Shown here piece after piece: positions 6,118 to 11,699 of a stretch of 44,189 nucleotides of DNA. The translations under genes and the position numbers were made by a program. The notes beneath the pieces were generated by a model. That model did not search any database, had not been told where the DNA came from, and saw only the letters and a list, made by a program, of their open reading frames with translations. Numbering within the stretch: the stretch's first letter is position 1; each line of letters begins with the position of its first letter. The DNA comes from Microcaldota archaeon (GTDB lineage: Archaea > Micrarchaeota > Micrarchaeia > Anstonellales > Bilamarchaeaceae), in NCBI GenBank assembly GCA_016932815.1, contig JAFGCC010000019.1:1-44189 (forward strand), given 5' to 3'.

Positions 6118-6135
6118 GTCCGGAGAGTGCGGGTC

Positions 6136-7209
6136 ATGGCGTTAAATAACGAAGTCCTGATTGTTCCGCAAAAGCATCTGCTAAATGGGGAACTCTTTAG
6201 GCTTGAGGGTAAGCACCGGAGGGAGGATAAGCTCCCTTGGGTGGAACTGCGGAAAGAACTGCGGAAGGAGGGCCTTGAGCTAAAAACCATCGACCAGTCT
6301 GATGACGCTTGCAACGCACGCGCGGTAGTGTTCATCGAAGTTCCCTCCCCCCGCAACAGAATCTACCGGTTTTGCCTGGAGAACAGGATGCAGGAGCGGC
6401 TTTTTTTCATGGCTTATGAGCCCCAGATTATACATCCCCCCAATCATAATGCCGACCTGCACTCCGAGTTCAAGGCCGCCTCCACGTTCAACAACCGCCT
6501 GGTGGATGGCAGGAAGTACTTCAAGCACAATTTTACCCTCCCAATCCGGCATGGGGATAAAATTTCCCTTCCCCGGGGAAATTTTGGTAAAAAGAAGCTG
6601 CTCTGCCTCATATCCTCAAACAAGTATTCGCACCGCAAAAACGAGTTATATTCGGAGCGCATCCGCGCAATCCGTTTTATGGAGCGCAACCACCCTGCCG
6701 ATTTCGACTTATATGGGGTTGGCTGGGATATGCCCGTAATCCACTTACCGCTTGCATCGATGCTCCCGGTAAATGCCGCAATACAGAGATTCTACCCTGT
6801 TTTCCCGTCCCTCCCAAGATTTTCTTCATATCCTTCTTACAGGGGGGTGAGCTGGGATAAGGCGAAGCTCTTTCCCAACTACAAGTTCACGATTGCCTAC
6901 GAGAACGAGTTGGGGTCCTACGGATACGTTTCGGAGAAAATACTCGAGGCAATGCTCTACGGATGCGTTCCGGTTTACCTGGGGGAGAGGCAGATATCCA
7001 GCATGGTCCCGGCGGGCTGTTTCGTTGACAAGAGAAGCTACTCGGACTATCGTGAGCTCTATGAGTACCTCTCTTGCGTGGATGAGTGCGAGCATGCAGG
7101 CTATCTGGAGAACATCGAGCGTTTCCTAAACAGCAAAAAGGCATATCCTTTCACAATTGATGCTTTCATAGAGAGCTTTTCTAGGATGCTAAATGGGGGC
7201 AGTGCATGA
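6136..7209 (+). CDS. Glycosyltransferase family 10 (fucosyltransferase-like)
   Basis: The 357-residue protein has no obvious signal or membrane segment. Its C-terminal third carries the GT10 signature: FTIAYENE, then GYVSEKILEAML and GCVPVYLGE, the alpha-1,3/4-fucosyltransferase-type nucleotide-sugar-binding core. The N-terminal half is a divergent acceptor domain. GT10 enzymes transfer fucose or related sugars from GDP donors. The ATG at 6136 has GGAG ten bases upstream; a GTG at 6127 is possible. No GDP-fucose synthesis genes are in the window. It is followed by a 29-residue hydrophobic ORF in ATGA overlap. Confidence 0.8.
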   Translation: MALNNEVLIVPQKHLLNGELFRLEGKHRREDKLPWVELRKELRKEGLELKTIDQSDDACNARAVVFIEVPSPRNRIYRFCLENRMQERLFFMAYEPQIIHPPNHNADLHSEFKAASTFNNRLVDGRKYFKHNFTLPIRHGDKISLPRGNFGKKKLLCLISSNKYSHRKNELYSERIRAIRFMERNHPADFDLYGVGWDMPVIHLPLASMLPVNAAIQRFYPVFPSLPRFSSYPSYRGVSWDKAKLFPNYKFTIAYENELGSYGYVSEKILEAMLYGCVPVYLGERQISSMVPAGCFVDKRSYSDYRELYEYLSCVDECEHAGYLENIERFLNSKKAYPFTIDAFIESFSRMLNGGSA

Positions 7210-7295: not shown

Positions 7296-7416
7296 ATTCT
7301 AGCATATGCGCTCTTAGGGGCGCTTTCAAGGATTTGTCCTCCTGGGCCAAGGGAGTGTTTGAGGGGATGGAGAAAGAGCCATTCTGATTCTATAAAACTA
7401 GGTTGCAGGATAAAAA

Positions 7417-7500
7417 CGCCGGGGGTGGGATTTGAACCCACGAATCCTTGCGGAAAACAGGTTAGCAACCTGCCGCCCTGCCGGACTAGGCGACCCCAGC
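7417..7500 (-). tRNA. tRNA-Ser (GCT)
   Basis: A class II tRNA with acceptor GCTGGGG pairing CCCCGGC, discriminator G and no encoded CCA. The anticodon stem GCAGG/CCTGT encloses loop TTGCTAA (anticodon GCT). The long variable arm includes TCCGCAAGGA and the T arm is GTGGGTTCAAATCCCAC. A run of five T follows on the transcribed strand and may terminate. Confidence 0.97.
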
Positions 7501-7518
7501 ATGAATTACATATCTGAT

Positions 7519-7628: not shown

Positions 7629-7700
7629 TGGACTTGGGGGGAATCGCACCCCCGGCTTCGCCGATGCGAACGGCGCACTCTACTGCTGAGTTACAAGCCC
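7629..7700 (-). tRNA. tRNA-Ala (CGC)
   Basis: Acceptor GGGCTTG pairs CAAGTCC, discriminator A, no encoded CCA. The D stem is ACTC/GAGT, so position 10 is A rather than the near-universal G. The anticodon stem CGCCG/CGGCG encloses loop TTCGCAT (anticodon CGC), and the T arm is GGGGGTGCGATTCCCCC. The first ten bases also encode the last codons and the TAA stop of the upstream homing endonuclease gene. Confidence 0.96.
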
Positions 7701-8677
7701 GTCGGTTTGATTGTTCCCGTGGATATCCACTCGTCATATTTGCAGATATTCCGGGGATTGCTGCTTCCTATTTTCTTAAACCATATTTTAAAGTTATTGC
7801 AGCCCCTGACGACAACGGTTTGCCCGTGGATATACGCGGGTATTCCTTGTTTGTTCAAAACACTTTTAACCTGTTCCCTCAGCCTGCTGCTTATGCTCCA
7901 GATGAAGATGTAAGGGTATTTGTAGCCCTCGTCTTTCCTGGCGGTAACGCATCCATCTGTATCAAACAAGCCCCGTATCACGTTGTTTACGCTTTCTGGA
8001 GGCAGCGACATTAGCTCTGGAGGCATCTTTAGCTCCCTGCCTTTCATACCTACCGGGAAACCGTGTTTTACCAACCATTTGGAAACGTGGGAAGCACAGG
8101 TTACTGCGTCTATCGTTCCAGAGCTCCTCCGTTTGCGCGAATTTATCCTGACTCCGAAGACTTTTCCCATTAGGGGGACCAGAAACCCCTCAAAATAAGC
8201 CCGGTCCTTCTCCGAATTCCCGCTGATGACTACGCTCGTTTTCTCTTTTCCGCCTTTTATGGGATATCTGGATACGCATCCATCGCCCATCATAATCCCG
8301 TAGAATTCAAGGGCCTCAGGGTTTGAGATGCTTATTTCGTCAATCTTTGGGAAATTCTTGGATAGCTGGCTCCTTACCTTTTTCATGCGTGCGCCAATCT
8401 CGCTTTTGCTCATTTGCCCAGCTGTCCGCTTGCCCCCCAGCACACGGCCCCAACTCTGCTCCAGTTTTCGCCCTTTTTCTAGAAATCTGGAGGTTCTGGG
8501 TTCCAAATCGCATAATTTAGCGAAGAAAGTGGTTGGCATCGTGCAAGCGCCGCTTCTCCAGTTCTTTATCGCCCGGTTTTTTTCCCCGGTCTTTTTGGCG
8601 AGTTCTTCGTTGTCAAGATTAAGCTGGGAGAACATTTCGTCTAAAGTCGCCCTTTCGAACTTCAACCTGCCTCCCAT
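7691..8677 (-). CDS. LAGLIDADG homing endonuclease next to tRNA-Ala
   Basis: The 328-residue protein has an N-terminal XRE-like helix-turn-helix region (about residues 10-60) and two LAGLIDADG helices, FYGIMMGDGC (125-134) and IRGLFDTDGC (234-243), each with the catalytic acidic residue. It is therefore a monomeric two-motif endonuclease likely to be active. It is free-standing, with no intein splicing motifs. The reading frame ends inside tRNA-Ala: its final Gly-Leu-stop is encoded by tRNA bases 2-10. A 15-base copy of the tRNA 5' end lies 37 bases upstream of its ATG, so the gene seems to have inserted into, or duplicated, the tRNA 5' end. It may belong to a mobile unit of about 1 kb. Confidence 0.88.
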   Translation of the reverse strand: MGGRLKFERATLDEMFSQLNLDNEELAKKTGEKNRAIKNWRSGACTMPTTFFAKLCDLEPRTSRFLEKGRKLEQSWGRVLGGKRTAGQMSKSEIGARMKKVRSQLSKNFPKIDEISISNPEALEFYGIMMGDGCVSRYPIKGGKEKTSVVISGNSEKDRAYFEGFLVPLMGKVFGVRINSRKRRSSGTIDAVTCASHVSKWLVKHGFPVGMKGRELKMPPELMSLPPESVNNVIRGLFDTDGCVTARKDEGYKYPYIFIWSISSRLREQVKSVLNKQGIPAYIHGQTVVVRGCNNFKIWFKKIGSSNPRNICKYDEWISTGTIKPTGL

Positions 8678-8713
8678 GGGAGTACATGCAGGCTAAAGCA
8701 TTTATTTCTTACT

Positions 8714-8728
8714 CTGAGCTACAAGCCC
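8714..8728 (-). repeat. 5' fragment of tRNA-Ala (direct repeat flanking the endonuclease gene)
   Basis: On the minus strand the sequence GGGCTTGTAGCTCAG matches 14 of 15 bases of the start of the intact tRNA-Ala (GGGCTTGTAACTCAG) in the same orientation about 1.03 kb away. The weaker match AGTA follows after a one-base gap. The single difference is tRNA position 10, where the fragment carries the usual G. It lies 19 bases after the rpoK stop. Confidence 0.85.
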
Positions 8729-8747: not shown

Positions 8748-8915
8748 TCAATTTACGACCACAAGCGGGCTGACGTCCTTCTCAAGCTCAAGCTTCGCCA
8801 CGTTGATGAAGGTCATTTCCTTGGAAACTTTCACCAGGGGCGGTGCGCCAAGCGAGAGCTGGAGCGCGCGTGCACCTACGATTCTTGCAATCTCAAAGTT
8901 ATTTAGGTTCTTCAT
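8748..8915 (-). CDS. rpoK: DNA-directed RNA polymerase subunit K (Rpb6/omega homologue)
   Basis: The 55-residue protein starts MKNLNNFEIARIVGARALQL and contains the family signature ARIVGARALQLSLGAPPLV (residues 10-28), followed by a beta-strand tail ending PLVVVN. RpoK clamps the largest RNA polymerase subunit during assembly. The length is normal. The gene sits between tRNA-Trp and the tRNA-Ala fragment on the same strand, so tRNA-Trp, rpoK, tRNA-Ala and tRNA-Ser were probably one cluster before the endonuclease arrived. GGGTGG lies just before the ATG. Confidence 0.93.
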   Translation of the reverse strand: MKNLNNFEIARIVGARALQLSLGAPPLVKVSKEMTFINVAKLELEKDVSPLVVVN

Positions 8916-8975: not shown

Positions 8976-9071
8976 TGGGATCATAGGGATTTGAACCCTA
9001 ACATGCAGGTTTCTTTATCGGGGGAGTCCCCCACTGGAGCCTGCCGCGCTACCAAGTTACGCCATGACCCC
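8976..9071 (-). tRNA. tRNA-Trp (CCA) with an intron of about 23 bases
   Basis: Acceptor GGGGTCA pairs TGATCCC, discriminator A, no encoded CCA. The anticodon stem is GCAGG/CCTGC. The loop region CTCCAG is interrupted after position 37 by about 23 bases containing the hairpin GGGGGACTCCCCC, then resumes with A before the 3' stem. This fits a canonical archaeal 37/38 intron removed by the bulge-helix-bulge endonuclease; the exact splice sites could shift by a base or two. A TTTTAAAA promoter lies about 32-39 bases upstream (9103-9110). Confidence 0.94.
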
Positions 9072-9271: not shown

Positions 9272-10105
9272 ATGGGGCCAGTAACAGACATGGATTTGCT
9301 GAAAACCAAAGCGGAATATTATGCTAGAAAGCTGCAGGATTCTAATCCCACAAACAGGGAGAACGCCGCAAAGGCAGTCTATGATATGTACTCGGACACC
9401 TACCATGCGCTGCCTTCGGACAAGGAAACCGAAGGCTTCATAGCCAAGAAAAAGCTAATCGACGATACGTTGCTCCACGTCCTCTTAGAAGCCCTCAAGG
9501 GTGACAAGTCCGAGGAAGTGCGCAGGCAGGTTGCGCTGGCCCTTGGAGCATCAGAACGCAAAGAGGCAATCGCCCCGCTGGCTGCCGCCTTGCAGGATGA
9601 AGACAGCCAGGTGGCAGGATACGCGGCATCCGGGCTGGGCAAGCTTGGAGGCGTAGAGGAGATGCTCCCCCACTTCCTCAACCTGGTAAAGCGTGAGGGC
9701 CTAGATGATAACATGAAGTCTGGAGTGGCGCAGGGGCTGTATGATTTGTTCAATTCAAAAGCAAACGAGGGGGAAGAGCCATACTACATCAAGGAAAAAG
9801 ACCGCGAGCCCTTGGTAAATTTCCTCCTAAAAACCGTGGGGGAGTCCGGAATGGGGGCAATGAGCGCGGCAATGGCACTAAAGGATGCGGCGTATTACAT
9901 AAAGACCCTGAAGCCGCTAAGGGAACTTGAGGCAAAAGCGGAAAGCCCAGAGGTAAAGAGGGCGCTCTCAGAAGCAATCTCCGCTCTCGAAGAGAGAATC
10001 GCAATACGCGGAGGGCAGGGCTTCCAGAGCGGAAAATCGCCTTCGGAACTTGAGGGCGGGGAACAGGGAGGCCGGGCAGTCCCAAGGAAAAGGGCAGTGC
10101 GCTAG
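9272..10105 (+). CDS. HEAT-repeat protein
   Basis: The 277-residue protein is almost all helical, with clear HEAT/PBS-lyase-type repeats in the middle: EVRRQVALALGASERKEAI, then SQVAGYAASGLGKLGG, and weaker ones on both sides. The C-terminus (after about residue 245) is disordered and Gly/Arg/Lys-rich. Such proteins are protein- or tRNA-modification scaffolds, but no partner can be assigned. Start ATG at 9272 is used; MDLLKTK at 9290 is an alternative. The next gene starts 28 bases downstream, so they are probably co-transcribed. Confidence 0.75.
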   Translation: MGPVTDMDLLKTKAEYYARKLQDSNPTNRENAAKAVYDMYSDTYHALPSDKETEGFIAKKKLIDDTLLHVLLEALKGDKSEEVRRQVALALGASERKEAIAPLAAALQDEDSQVAGYAASGLGKLGGVEEMLPHFLNLVKREGLDDNMKSGVAQGLYDLFNSKANEGEEPYYIKEKDREPLVNFLLKTVGESGMGAMSAAMALKDAAYYIKTLKPLRELEAKAESPEVKRALSEAISALEERIAIRGGQGFQSGKSPSELEGGEQGGRAVPRKRAVR

Positions 10106-10133
10106 AAGAGGGCAAGGAAACGGGTCATGGGGC

Positions 10134-11699
10134 ATGGACGAAACAGGGGTGGCACTTGAGCGCGCATGGAGCGGAACCTGCAAGGTTTTATTCGGGCAGG
10201 AACTTGGGAGCTACAAATTATACTCGAAATGGCTAAGGGAACTCGTGGATGCCCCAAGCACAAGGAAATCCTGCATCTTAGGCAAGGAAGTAATCCACTC
10301 CACAAACAATTATCGCAAGAGCGCGCCCTCAATTAGCTTAGACGAGGTGGATTTCCACAGGAAGTTCCCTCCCCTCAACCTAAACGAGATAAAGGACATA
10401 GACAGCATATCCGAAGCGGTAAAAGATAGGGTAGCCTACGCGGGAAACATGATTCTGGGCAACTCAAGGTTCATAGAAAAAAGCTCAAATGTAAACGACA
10501 GCTTCTACGTGTCCGATTCCACCATTTGCGGGAATTCCAAATACATGGCTTACTGCACCCTAACAAGGCACGACAGCTACGGATTCGGGGGGAATGCGTT
10601 TTCGCAATGCGATTTCTGCCTCAAGTGCCATGAACTAACCAGGGTTAAGCGCTCATTCGAATTGTGGATGAGCCAGGATTGCGAGGACTGCTATTATTCG
10701 CACGGGTTGAAGAACTGCTCAAACTGCATCTTCTGCTTCAACCTCCAGAACAAGCGCAATGCAATCGGGAACCAAGAACTCCCCCCAGACAAGTTCAGGC
10801 AAATCCGCGCAAAGCTAATTTCGGAGATGGCAGAAGAATTAAAGGCCAAAAAGCGCCTGCCATCCCTAATAGAAATCGTGGGCAAGGAGAAGAAGGCGCC
10901 CAAAATACGCGTGAGCGCTCCCGCTCCTGAGGAGCAAAAGGACAAGGGCAAAATAGAAGCCGCATTCTCAAAAACGATGCAGTTGATTTTCGGAGTGCCC
11001 CACTCAAAGGGAATAGATTTCTACGCGGATTGGCTAACCATGCACACTAGGGGCTTTGAGAGGCACAAATCCGCAGCAAGCAAAAAGGAAGTGTTCCTCG
11101 CCCACTACGGAAACTATTCAGACCTCCCCAAAGACCGGCTCCTAAATCTAGAAGAGGCGCAGGAATTCGGGAAGAGCGCAAAAGCCGCCCCGGATGAGAT
11201 AGGGGGAATCTCCCTCTCAAATGCGCACTCCAAAATAAGCGAAATCGCCTTCTTCAACACCGGCATACAAGACGGGCAGAACCCAAACGACATAGAATGC
11301 ACAATCAACATAGAAGCATCCAACTGCTACCGCACCGTATGCAGCGTTTATTCCAAATACTGCGGATGCTCGTTCTGGCCAAGGAGCTCGGAGCATGCAT
11401 TCGGCTGCGATTCCGTATTTGACACGGGCTTCTGCGTAAACTGCTACCATTCAGTTAGGCTCTCAAGATGCTTCGAGATGGACAGCTGCAATTCCTGCAT
11501 GGACTGCATGTTCTGCCACAACTGCGAGAACCTCCAGAATTCCATGTTCTGCTTCAACACGAAAAACAAGAACTACGCAATAGGGAACGTGGAAGTCGGG
11601 AGGGAGGAATACCTCCGCATAAAGAAGCTCGTCCTAGACGAAATAAATTCGGAGCTGGAAAAAACCGGGAAGCTAAAGAGAAGCGTGTTCTCATTCTAA
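10134..11699 (+). CDS. Duplicated cysteine-rich protein of unknown function
   Basis: The 521-residue protein is built from two homologous halves. Each half has an N-terminal region with LNL(N)E-like and SEIA/SISEA-like segments, then a strongly cysteine-rich strip (QCDFCLKCHEL, QDCEDCYYSHGLKNCSNC, CFNLQNKRNAIGN in half one; GFCVNCYHSVRLSRC, SCNSCMDCMFCHNCENL, CFNTKNKNYAIGN in half two), then a helical tail (FRQIRAKLISEM and YLRIKKLVLDEI). The near-periodic CxxC/CxNC spacing suggests a stacked beta-solenoid with metal or disulphide rungs. No enzyme motif is visible. It follows the HEAT gene and its 3' end overlaps the convergent DHH gene by 9 bases. Confidence 0.8.
   Translation: MDETGVALERAWSGTCKVLFGQELGSYKLYSKWLRELVDAPSTRKSCILGKEVIHSTNNYRKSAPSISLDEVDFHRKFPPLNLNEIKDIDSISEAVKDRVAYAGNMILGNSRFIEKSSNVNDSFYVSDSTICGNSKYMAYCTLTRHDSYGFGGNAFSQCDFCLKCHELTRVKRSFELWMSQDCEDCYYSHGLKNCSNCIFCFNLQNKRNAIGNQELPPDKFRQIRAKLISEMAEELKAKKRLPSLIEIVGKEKKAPKIRVSAPAPEEQKDKGKIEAAFSKTMQLIFGVPHSKGIDFYADWLTMHTRGFERHKSAASKKEVFLAHYGNYSDLPKDRLLNLEEAQEFGKSAKAAPDEIGGISLSNAHSKISEIAFFNTGIQDGQNPNDIECTINIEASNCYRTVCSVYSKYCGCSFWPRSSEHAFGCDSVFDTGFCVNCYHSVRLSRCFEMDSCNSCMDCMFCHNCENLQNSMFCFNTKNKNYAIGNVEVGREEYLRIKKLVLDEINSELEKTGKLKRSVFSF

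Follow-up and report, generated by a model that had tools for sequence, protein, structure and literature searches.

A free-standing homing endonuclease gene (HEG) of the LAGLIDADG type in Micrarchaeota very probably replaces the 5' part of a tRNA, or the whole tRNA, with a version of its own. We base this reading on insertion relative to orthologous empty sites, a stub of the native tRNA, one intact single-copy tRNA gene and recurrence at many isoacceptors, all of which were read from sequence. The window, i.e. the whole stretch of 44,189 nucleotides that was analysed, belongs to a Micrarchaeota MAG of 1.25 Mb, here called G000. The features of the locus are the following:

8976..9071, minus strand: tRNA-Trp(CCA), containing a canonical intron of 23 nt and serving as synteny marker on the left (ARAGORN, introns allowed)
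8751..8915, minus strand: rpoK, RNA polymerase subunit K (PF01192, E=4e-7; matches family-wide), its end being the left flank of the insertion
8710..8728, minus strand: stub left from the 5' end of the native tRNA-Ala, covering nt 1 to about 20, GGGCTTGTAGCTCAG-AGTA (read directly)
8698..8709, minus strand: AT-rich TATA-like box AGAAATAAATGC, directly after the stub and 21-32 nt before the HEG ATG
7691..8677, minus strand: free-standing LAGLIDADG HEG of 328 aa, ATG at 8677 (PF14528, LAGLIDADG_3, E=4e-11)
7691..7693, minus strand: HEG stop codon TAA, which is tRNA nt 8-10 (T8 A9 A10; read directly)
7629..7700, minus strand: intact tRNA-Ala(CGC) with A10:U25 replacing the native G10:C25 (ARAGORN; stem check)
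7416..7501, minus strand: tRNA-Ser(GCT), the next gene downstream and right-hand synteny marker (ARAGORN)

An earlier sequence-only reading of this DNA had described the main elements, and all of them were confirmed: a LAGLIDADG gene whose stop codon coincides with tRNA bases 8-10 (TAA, 7693..7691), an intact tRNA-Ala directly after it (7700..7629, called by ARAGORN) and, just after rpoK, a copy of the tRNA start in the same orientation (8728..8714). This 15-nt copy, GGGCTTGTAGCTCAG, is identical to the start of tRNA-Ala(CGC) at 14 of 15 positions. It starts 22 nt beyond the rpoK stop, and the match reaches about 19 nt in all (GGGCTTGTAGCTCAGAGTA, 8728..8710), corresponding to nt 1-20 of tRNA-Ala minus one base. 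The box AGAAATAAATGC behind it is the probable promoter of the HEG, whose final residues and stop are encoded by tRNA-Ala(CGC). The latter is the sole tRNA-Ala(CGC) found in G000 (single pattern match), and its A10 is no defect because it pairs with U25. Regarding the other genes around the locus, the tRNA-Trp gene with the 23-nt intron (8976-9071, minus strand; also L307) is missed by a default tRNA scan, and tRNA-Ala(GGC) of G000 has a short intron as well. The plus strand carries a glycosyltransferase family 10 gene of the fucosyltransferase type (6127-7209; PF00852, E=1e-11) and a cysteine-rich 549-aa ORF without Pfam match (10050-11699), upstream of which a HEAT-repeat protein is encoded (9272-10105).

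The AlphaFold2 model of the 328-aa HEG protein (mean pLDDT 88.6) consists of an N-terminal helical bundle resembling a helix-turn-helix (weak HTH_3 match) and two LAGLIDADG halves, each carrying one motif:

8276..8308, minus strand: LAGLIDADG motif 1, EFYGIMMGDGC, with acidic D132 (G131-D132-G133 invariant in 12 relatives)
7949..7981, minus strand: LAGLIDADG motif 2, VIRGLFDTDGC, with acidic D241 (R235-G236-L237 and D239-T240-D241-G242 invariant in 12 relatives)

Both catalytic acids and the paired alpha-beta-beta-alpha-beta-beta-alpha fold of a two-motif single-chain LAGLIDADG endonuclease are present, and the best PDB folds are I-Tsp061I (E=1.3e-8) and I-DmoI (E about 2e-7). WhiA, a non-nuclease relative, is among the weaker fold matches. 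From what is known of the family, we take the retained D132 and D241 as an argument for nuclease activity. Orthologues of the HEG are 58-60% identical, with identities of about 0.70, 0.77 and 0.41 at codon positions 1 to 3; the differences are mostly at third positions, hence the protein is under purifying selection. The signs of its putative site-specific cleavage and homing are comparative ones, namely mobility, relics and losses.

The comparison with related genomes separates filled from empty sites. In two congeners, G020 (L032) and G021 (L033), the whole arrangement of the window is repeated. In three other congeners, G018, G019 and G022, rpoK is directly followed by tRNA-Ala(CGC) without HEG or stub, and therefore the layout in the window represents an insertion. 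This is the comparison of the interval between rpoK and tRNA-Ala that the sequence-only reading had proposed; the isolated 15-bp copy, whose presence in HEG-free relatives would have refuted that reading, is absent from G018, G019 and G022. The spacing between rpoK and tRNA-Ala(CGC) amounts to 11-31 nt in these three genomes and in G024-G028, which belong to another genus, and tRNA-Ser(GCT) lies downstream in G018, G019, G022 and at L032/L033 as well. A tree of RpoB fragments of the genus is star-like and compatible with vertical as well as horizontal inheritance of the window HEG. In other families, tRNA-Ala has a divergent gene (about 470 aa) as its neighbour, with the HEG located between the two. 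Compared with HEG-free G220, for example, G226 has a flanking gene that is 91% identical and about 1 kb of extra sequence, while G119 and G118 form a second filled/empty pair with the same divergent flanking gene. The stub of G226 follows the native tRNA promoter region at nearly native distance, and in G119 the sequence in common with the empty site reaches the edge of the native tRNA. Hence, the first option of the sequence-only reading, a compact endonuclease unit that was inserted in the tRNA gene and restored its 5' end, is well supported: congeners have empty sites, other families have orthologous ones, and native tRNA stubs precede other such genes.

The tRNA genes next to HEGs are altered. 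The median best identity of HEG-bearing tRNA-Ala(CGC) genes to HEG-free congeners is 84%, compared to 99% among the HEG-free genes (p=6e-6), in a test that ignores shared ancestry, neighbouring genomes not being independent samples and congener distances being variable. The alteration is concentrated in the D-arm, as nt 8-26 show 72% identity in HEG-bearing and 94% in HEG-free genes. As internal control, tRNA-Ala(GGC) is identical in G018, G019, G020 and G021, and tRNA-Ala(CGC) of G019-G021 is only 69-72% identical to HEG-free congeners; this control removes much of the doubt related to shared ancestry. The window itself is the mildest case: its tRNA-Ala(CGC) is mostly native, with A10:U25 for G10:C25 and a few other stem bases, and the replacement reading is weakest here. 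The cleanest case is tRNA-Gly(CCC) in G061, where the stub GCGGCTGTAGTCCAGCCTGGTAGGA is identical at 25/25 positions to the native tRNA-Gly of the empty-site genomes G051 and G054. The downstream tRNA-Gly of G061 has about half a dozen changes in nt 5-26 and further ones in nt 46-48, but retains the native sequence in its anticodon arm and acceptor 3' strand. Pairing in its D-stem is kept via changes on both strands, and G15-C48 has become A15-U48, as read from the sequences. G203 shows a similar Gly(CCC) stub with an altered tRNA, and the stub of G020 matches the native Ala type.

A separate observation concerns the elbow of tRNA-Ala. Native tRNA-Ala genes of G000, G018, G022 and many genomes of families f20/f21 have a non-canonical elbow, in which A18 and G55 take the place of G18 and T55 (D-loop AG[CT]AG[CT]A, T-loop TGCRAHT), and most HEG-borne tRNA-Ala genes have the canonical GG and TTC. 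HEG relics occur at 2 of about 28 HEG-free tRNA-Ala genes with canonical T-loop versus 0 of about 50 native ones, which is only suggestive of the canonical T-loop always marking the passage of a HEG.

Altered tRNAs and HEGs also show signs of mobility and decay. The tRNA-Ala genes of G146, which has a HEG, and G127, which has a HEG relic, are identical at 71/72 positions although the genomes belong to different genera; likewise, those of G119 and G180 from different genera are 95% identical, and their congeners are more distant. The relic in G127 comprises just 20-odd C-terminal HEG codons at the tRNA start, and the HEG of G153 is retained with an internal deletion. Furthermore, G145 possesses the tRNA of G153 (99%) without HEG, and G019 the tRNA of G020 (97%) without HEG or stub. 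As read from these comparisons, the series of empty, filled, decayed and lost states is as expected for homing genes. About 950 nt upstream of tRNA-Ala in G127 (L227), an unrelated ORF, which by eye resembles a TrpF-type isomerase, takes the place of the HEG body.

One could assume the opposite order of events, namely that D-arms drift or are converted from other tRNAs and that HEGs are attracted to or tolerated at altered tRNAs without cleaving anything. Association and causal direction are indeed not fully separable from sequence, and HEG-free genomes with unusual tRNA-Ala exist. However, the native stubs upstream in G061, G203, G020 and G226 imply that the altered tRNA came with or after the HEG, and near-identical altered tRNAs accompany HEGs or their relics across genera, which makes such an order improbable.

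The stub itself deserves a closer look. In the whole G000 genome the 15-mer (N at nt 10, at most one mismatch) has 5 occurrences: the stub, the intact tRNA, tRNA-Lys, Ala-GGC with its intron and a gene reading as Ala-TGC with an intron. Elsewhere it is thus found only in tRNA genes and is no common word of the genome, hence the sequence-only reading had recognised a genuine tRNA start. Judged by 600 background windows, the probability of so good a match no further than 120 nt from a gene start is about 0.002. At a distance of 28-39 nt upstream of the HEG start, a native-type tRNA start is present in G000, G020, G021, G226, G229, G180 and G271, with background probabilities for stubs ranging from <0.002 to 0.09; the stubs of G146, G183 and G119 were weak or absent in the scan. 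The TATA-like box is conserved as AGAAATAARTA in G020/G021, and similar boxes follow the stubs in G271, G226, G229, G146, G180, G203 and G061. It is very unlikely, then, that the 15-bp copy arose by chance or represents a promoter fragment derived from a tRNA, the HEG simply being inserted in the spacer between rpoK and the tRNA. Free-standing HEGs usually do reside in spacers and some members have no detectable stub, but the confinement of the 15-mer to tRNA genes in G000, the recurrence of stubs at a similar distance before the HEG start and the perfect match of the G061 stub to native tRNA-Gly speak against it.

The second option of the sequence-only reading was a giant D-loop intron. The upstream copy would then form the 5' exon, and splicing at a bulge-helix-bulge (BHB) motif would remove the HEG as well as the second tRNA start. 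Archaeal tRNA introns carrying HEGs exist, and in the window the joined product would retain all stem pairs (G10:U25). However, G000 is the only one among the loci tested in which both the joined and the intact version would pair. In all six other loci tested (G020, G021, G061, G203, G226 and G229), a molecule joined from stub and tRNA body has broken acceptor or D-stem pairs, whereas the intact downstream gene pairs well in all six, a single mismatch in the D-stem being present in G020 and likewise in G203. The upstream copy of G021 furthermore has lost G3 of the G3:U70 alanine identity pair. A scan of possible junctions in G000 and G020 revealed no BHB with a 4-bp central helix and both flanking helices, and in G021 only a single 4+4 match without outer helix. 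Moreover, no tRNA-Ala(CGC) other than the one beside the HEG was found in those genomes, and this one must therefore be the working copy. Given the mispaired joined products and the BHB scan, we rejected the giant intron, which appears highly improbable.

An integrative element of plasmid or viral type that has been reduced to a single gene, the repeat representing attL/attR, can practically be dismissed: tRNA genes are classic attachment sites and the unit is flanked by direct repeats, but there is no integrase, the HEG is the sole gene-sized ORF between the copies, the compact size of about 0.7-1.0 kb is the same in all families, and the repeat is the tRNA 5' end. A viral origin was also considered and rejected; a scan of viral contigs gave matches of just 23-31%, and no tRNA was found in the loci scanned.

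The window HEG belongs to a larger class. A profile search of 301 Micrarchaeota genomes resulted in HEG matches in 92 of them, and 85 matches were examined with their flanks, 84 from Micrarchaeota and one from a bacterial MAG. Of these, 38/85 end within -40 to +65 nt of a tRNA start on the same strand (24/85 with intron-less calls alone, since intron-allowed ARAGORN calls may include errors). The tRNA is overlapped by the HEG in 25/85 matches, and in 10 of the 38 the stop codon falls on tRNA nt 8-10. The tRNAs concerned are Ala(CGC) in ten and Gly(CCC) in four cases, as well as Thr, Gln, Phe, Val, Asp and others. By chance, well under one such HEG-tRNA adjacency would be expected, an estimate based on how densely tRNAs occur in the remainder of these loci. 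Some other matches are found in rRNA gene regions, so the HEG family has several lifestyles.

Among the further members, relatives of the window HEG lie within 16S or 23S rRNA regions at L124, L125, L143, L147, L149, L150, L151, L153 and L154, and these are probably rRNA introns. In the bacterial MAG (L034:4917-5661), probably CPR, a related HEG overlaps the first 23 nt of tRNA-Ser(GGA), whose CCA is encoded, and no clear stub is seen upstream. At tRNA-Val(GAC) and tRNA-Gln genes beside HEGs (L037 in G274, L046 in G297 and L108 in G020:C57) there are seeming D-loop insertions of 30-40 nt. They are possible D-loop introns and could represent another way of breaking the target site. Antisense overlaps between HEGs and tRNAs were dropped; the example read (L105) lies in repetitive sequence and is likely a false tRNA call.

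From all these comparisons, a mechanism can be proposed for the replacement of tRNA ends by HEGs. The HEG is inserted in the D-loop of the native tRNA gene, behind approximately nt 20, and native nt 1-20 are left upstream as a dead stub with the putative TATA-like promoter of the HEG right behind it. The 3' end of the HEG is fused to the 5' end of a replacement tRNA, in such a way that T8-A9-R10 serves as stop codon, and the intact tRNA is presumably freed from a longer transcript by RNase P. We infer that the endonuclease cuts the native tRNA gene and that during repair from a HEG-bearing allele, the adjoining 5' end of the tRNA, or all of it, is copied along with the HEG. Conversion may end inside the tRNA, as in G061 and perhaps the window, or beyond it, as in G020, G146 and G180. 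The altered D-arm would then escape further cutting. Since the intact tRNA-Ala(GGC) of G020 keeps native nt 1-22, the target must include locus-specific bases beyond these. Whether such an element acts as a natural cleave-and-rescue system, with the endonuclease destroying the only native copy of the tRNA gene and its own element bringing a recoded, cleavage-resistant tRNA as rescue, we consider an even chance. If true, foreign tRNA genes would be spread through the Micrarchaeota in this way, and resistant tRNAs would outlast the decay of the HEG.

Several known systems share single aspects with the tRNA HEGs. I-DmoI and I-Tsp061I have the same fold and motifs as the window HEG, but lie in spliced rRNA introns; the tRNA HEGs do without splicing, and an intact host gene results from the replacement of sequence. 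Integrase elements at tRNAs likewise insert in a tRNA gene, regenerate an intact tRNA and duplicate a tRNA segment. However, they use a tyrosine integrase and a 3' attachment site, whereas the tRNA HEGs are single genes with neither of these, which duplicate a 5' segment, and the regenerated segment is often diverged. SegB of phage T4 is a free-standing GIY-YIG homing endonuclease encoded between tRNA-Arg and tRNA-Ile (PMC2988022). It resembles the tRNA HEGs in being a free-standing endonuclease beside tRNA genes with which the tRNA region spreads along, but its listed target is the intergenic tRNA region of the phage and the review mentions no tRNA stub or rebuilt end (PMC2988022), whereas the window gene is of the LAGLIDADG type and inserted at the tRNA D-loop. 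The mORFs of fungal mitochondria (Allomyces macrogynus, Glomus sp.) replace the C-terminal end of atp6, atp9, cox2 or nad3; the native end is kept as a relic, which has its closest match in relatives, and the new one is diverged (PMC3630166). Here too, an endonuclease gene inside a host gene brings a foreign substitute for the cut-off end and the native end is left behind. In G061 and G020 the native relic is closest to empty-site relatives, and the replacement end is diverged, though weakly in the window. The mORFs differ in affecting the 3' end of protein genes in mitochondria, while the tRNA HEGs affect the 5' end of tRNA genes on archaeal chromosomes and their reading frame overlaps the tRNA. 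By analogy, the logic of the tRNA HEGs would equal that of the mORFs, mirrored to the 5' end and on a tRNA. Our search of the open-access literature yielded no account of HEG fusions to the 5' ends of tRNAs.

Hence, essential and sequence-constrained tRNA genes appear to serve as sites for a free-standing homing gene without intron or splicing, the 5' end being rebuilt instead. A stop codon borrowed from the common T8-A9-R10 of tRNAs provides a simple reason why these HEGs can fuse to many different tRNAs. One phylum holds all stages of the homing cycle, i.e. empty, filled, decaying and lost with the altered tRNA remaining, and a possible natural cut-and-rescue drive becomes directly testable in vitro. 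For the Micrarchaeota themselves, the tRNA HEGs offer an explanation for unusual D-arms and for the patchy occurrence of foreign tRNA-Ala genes.
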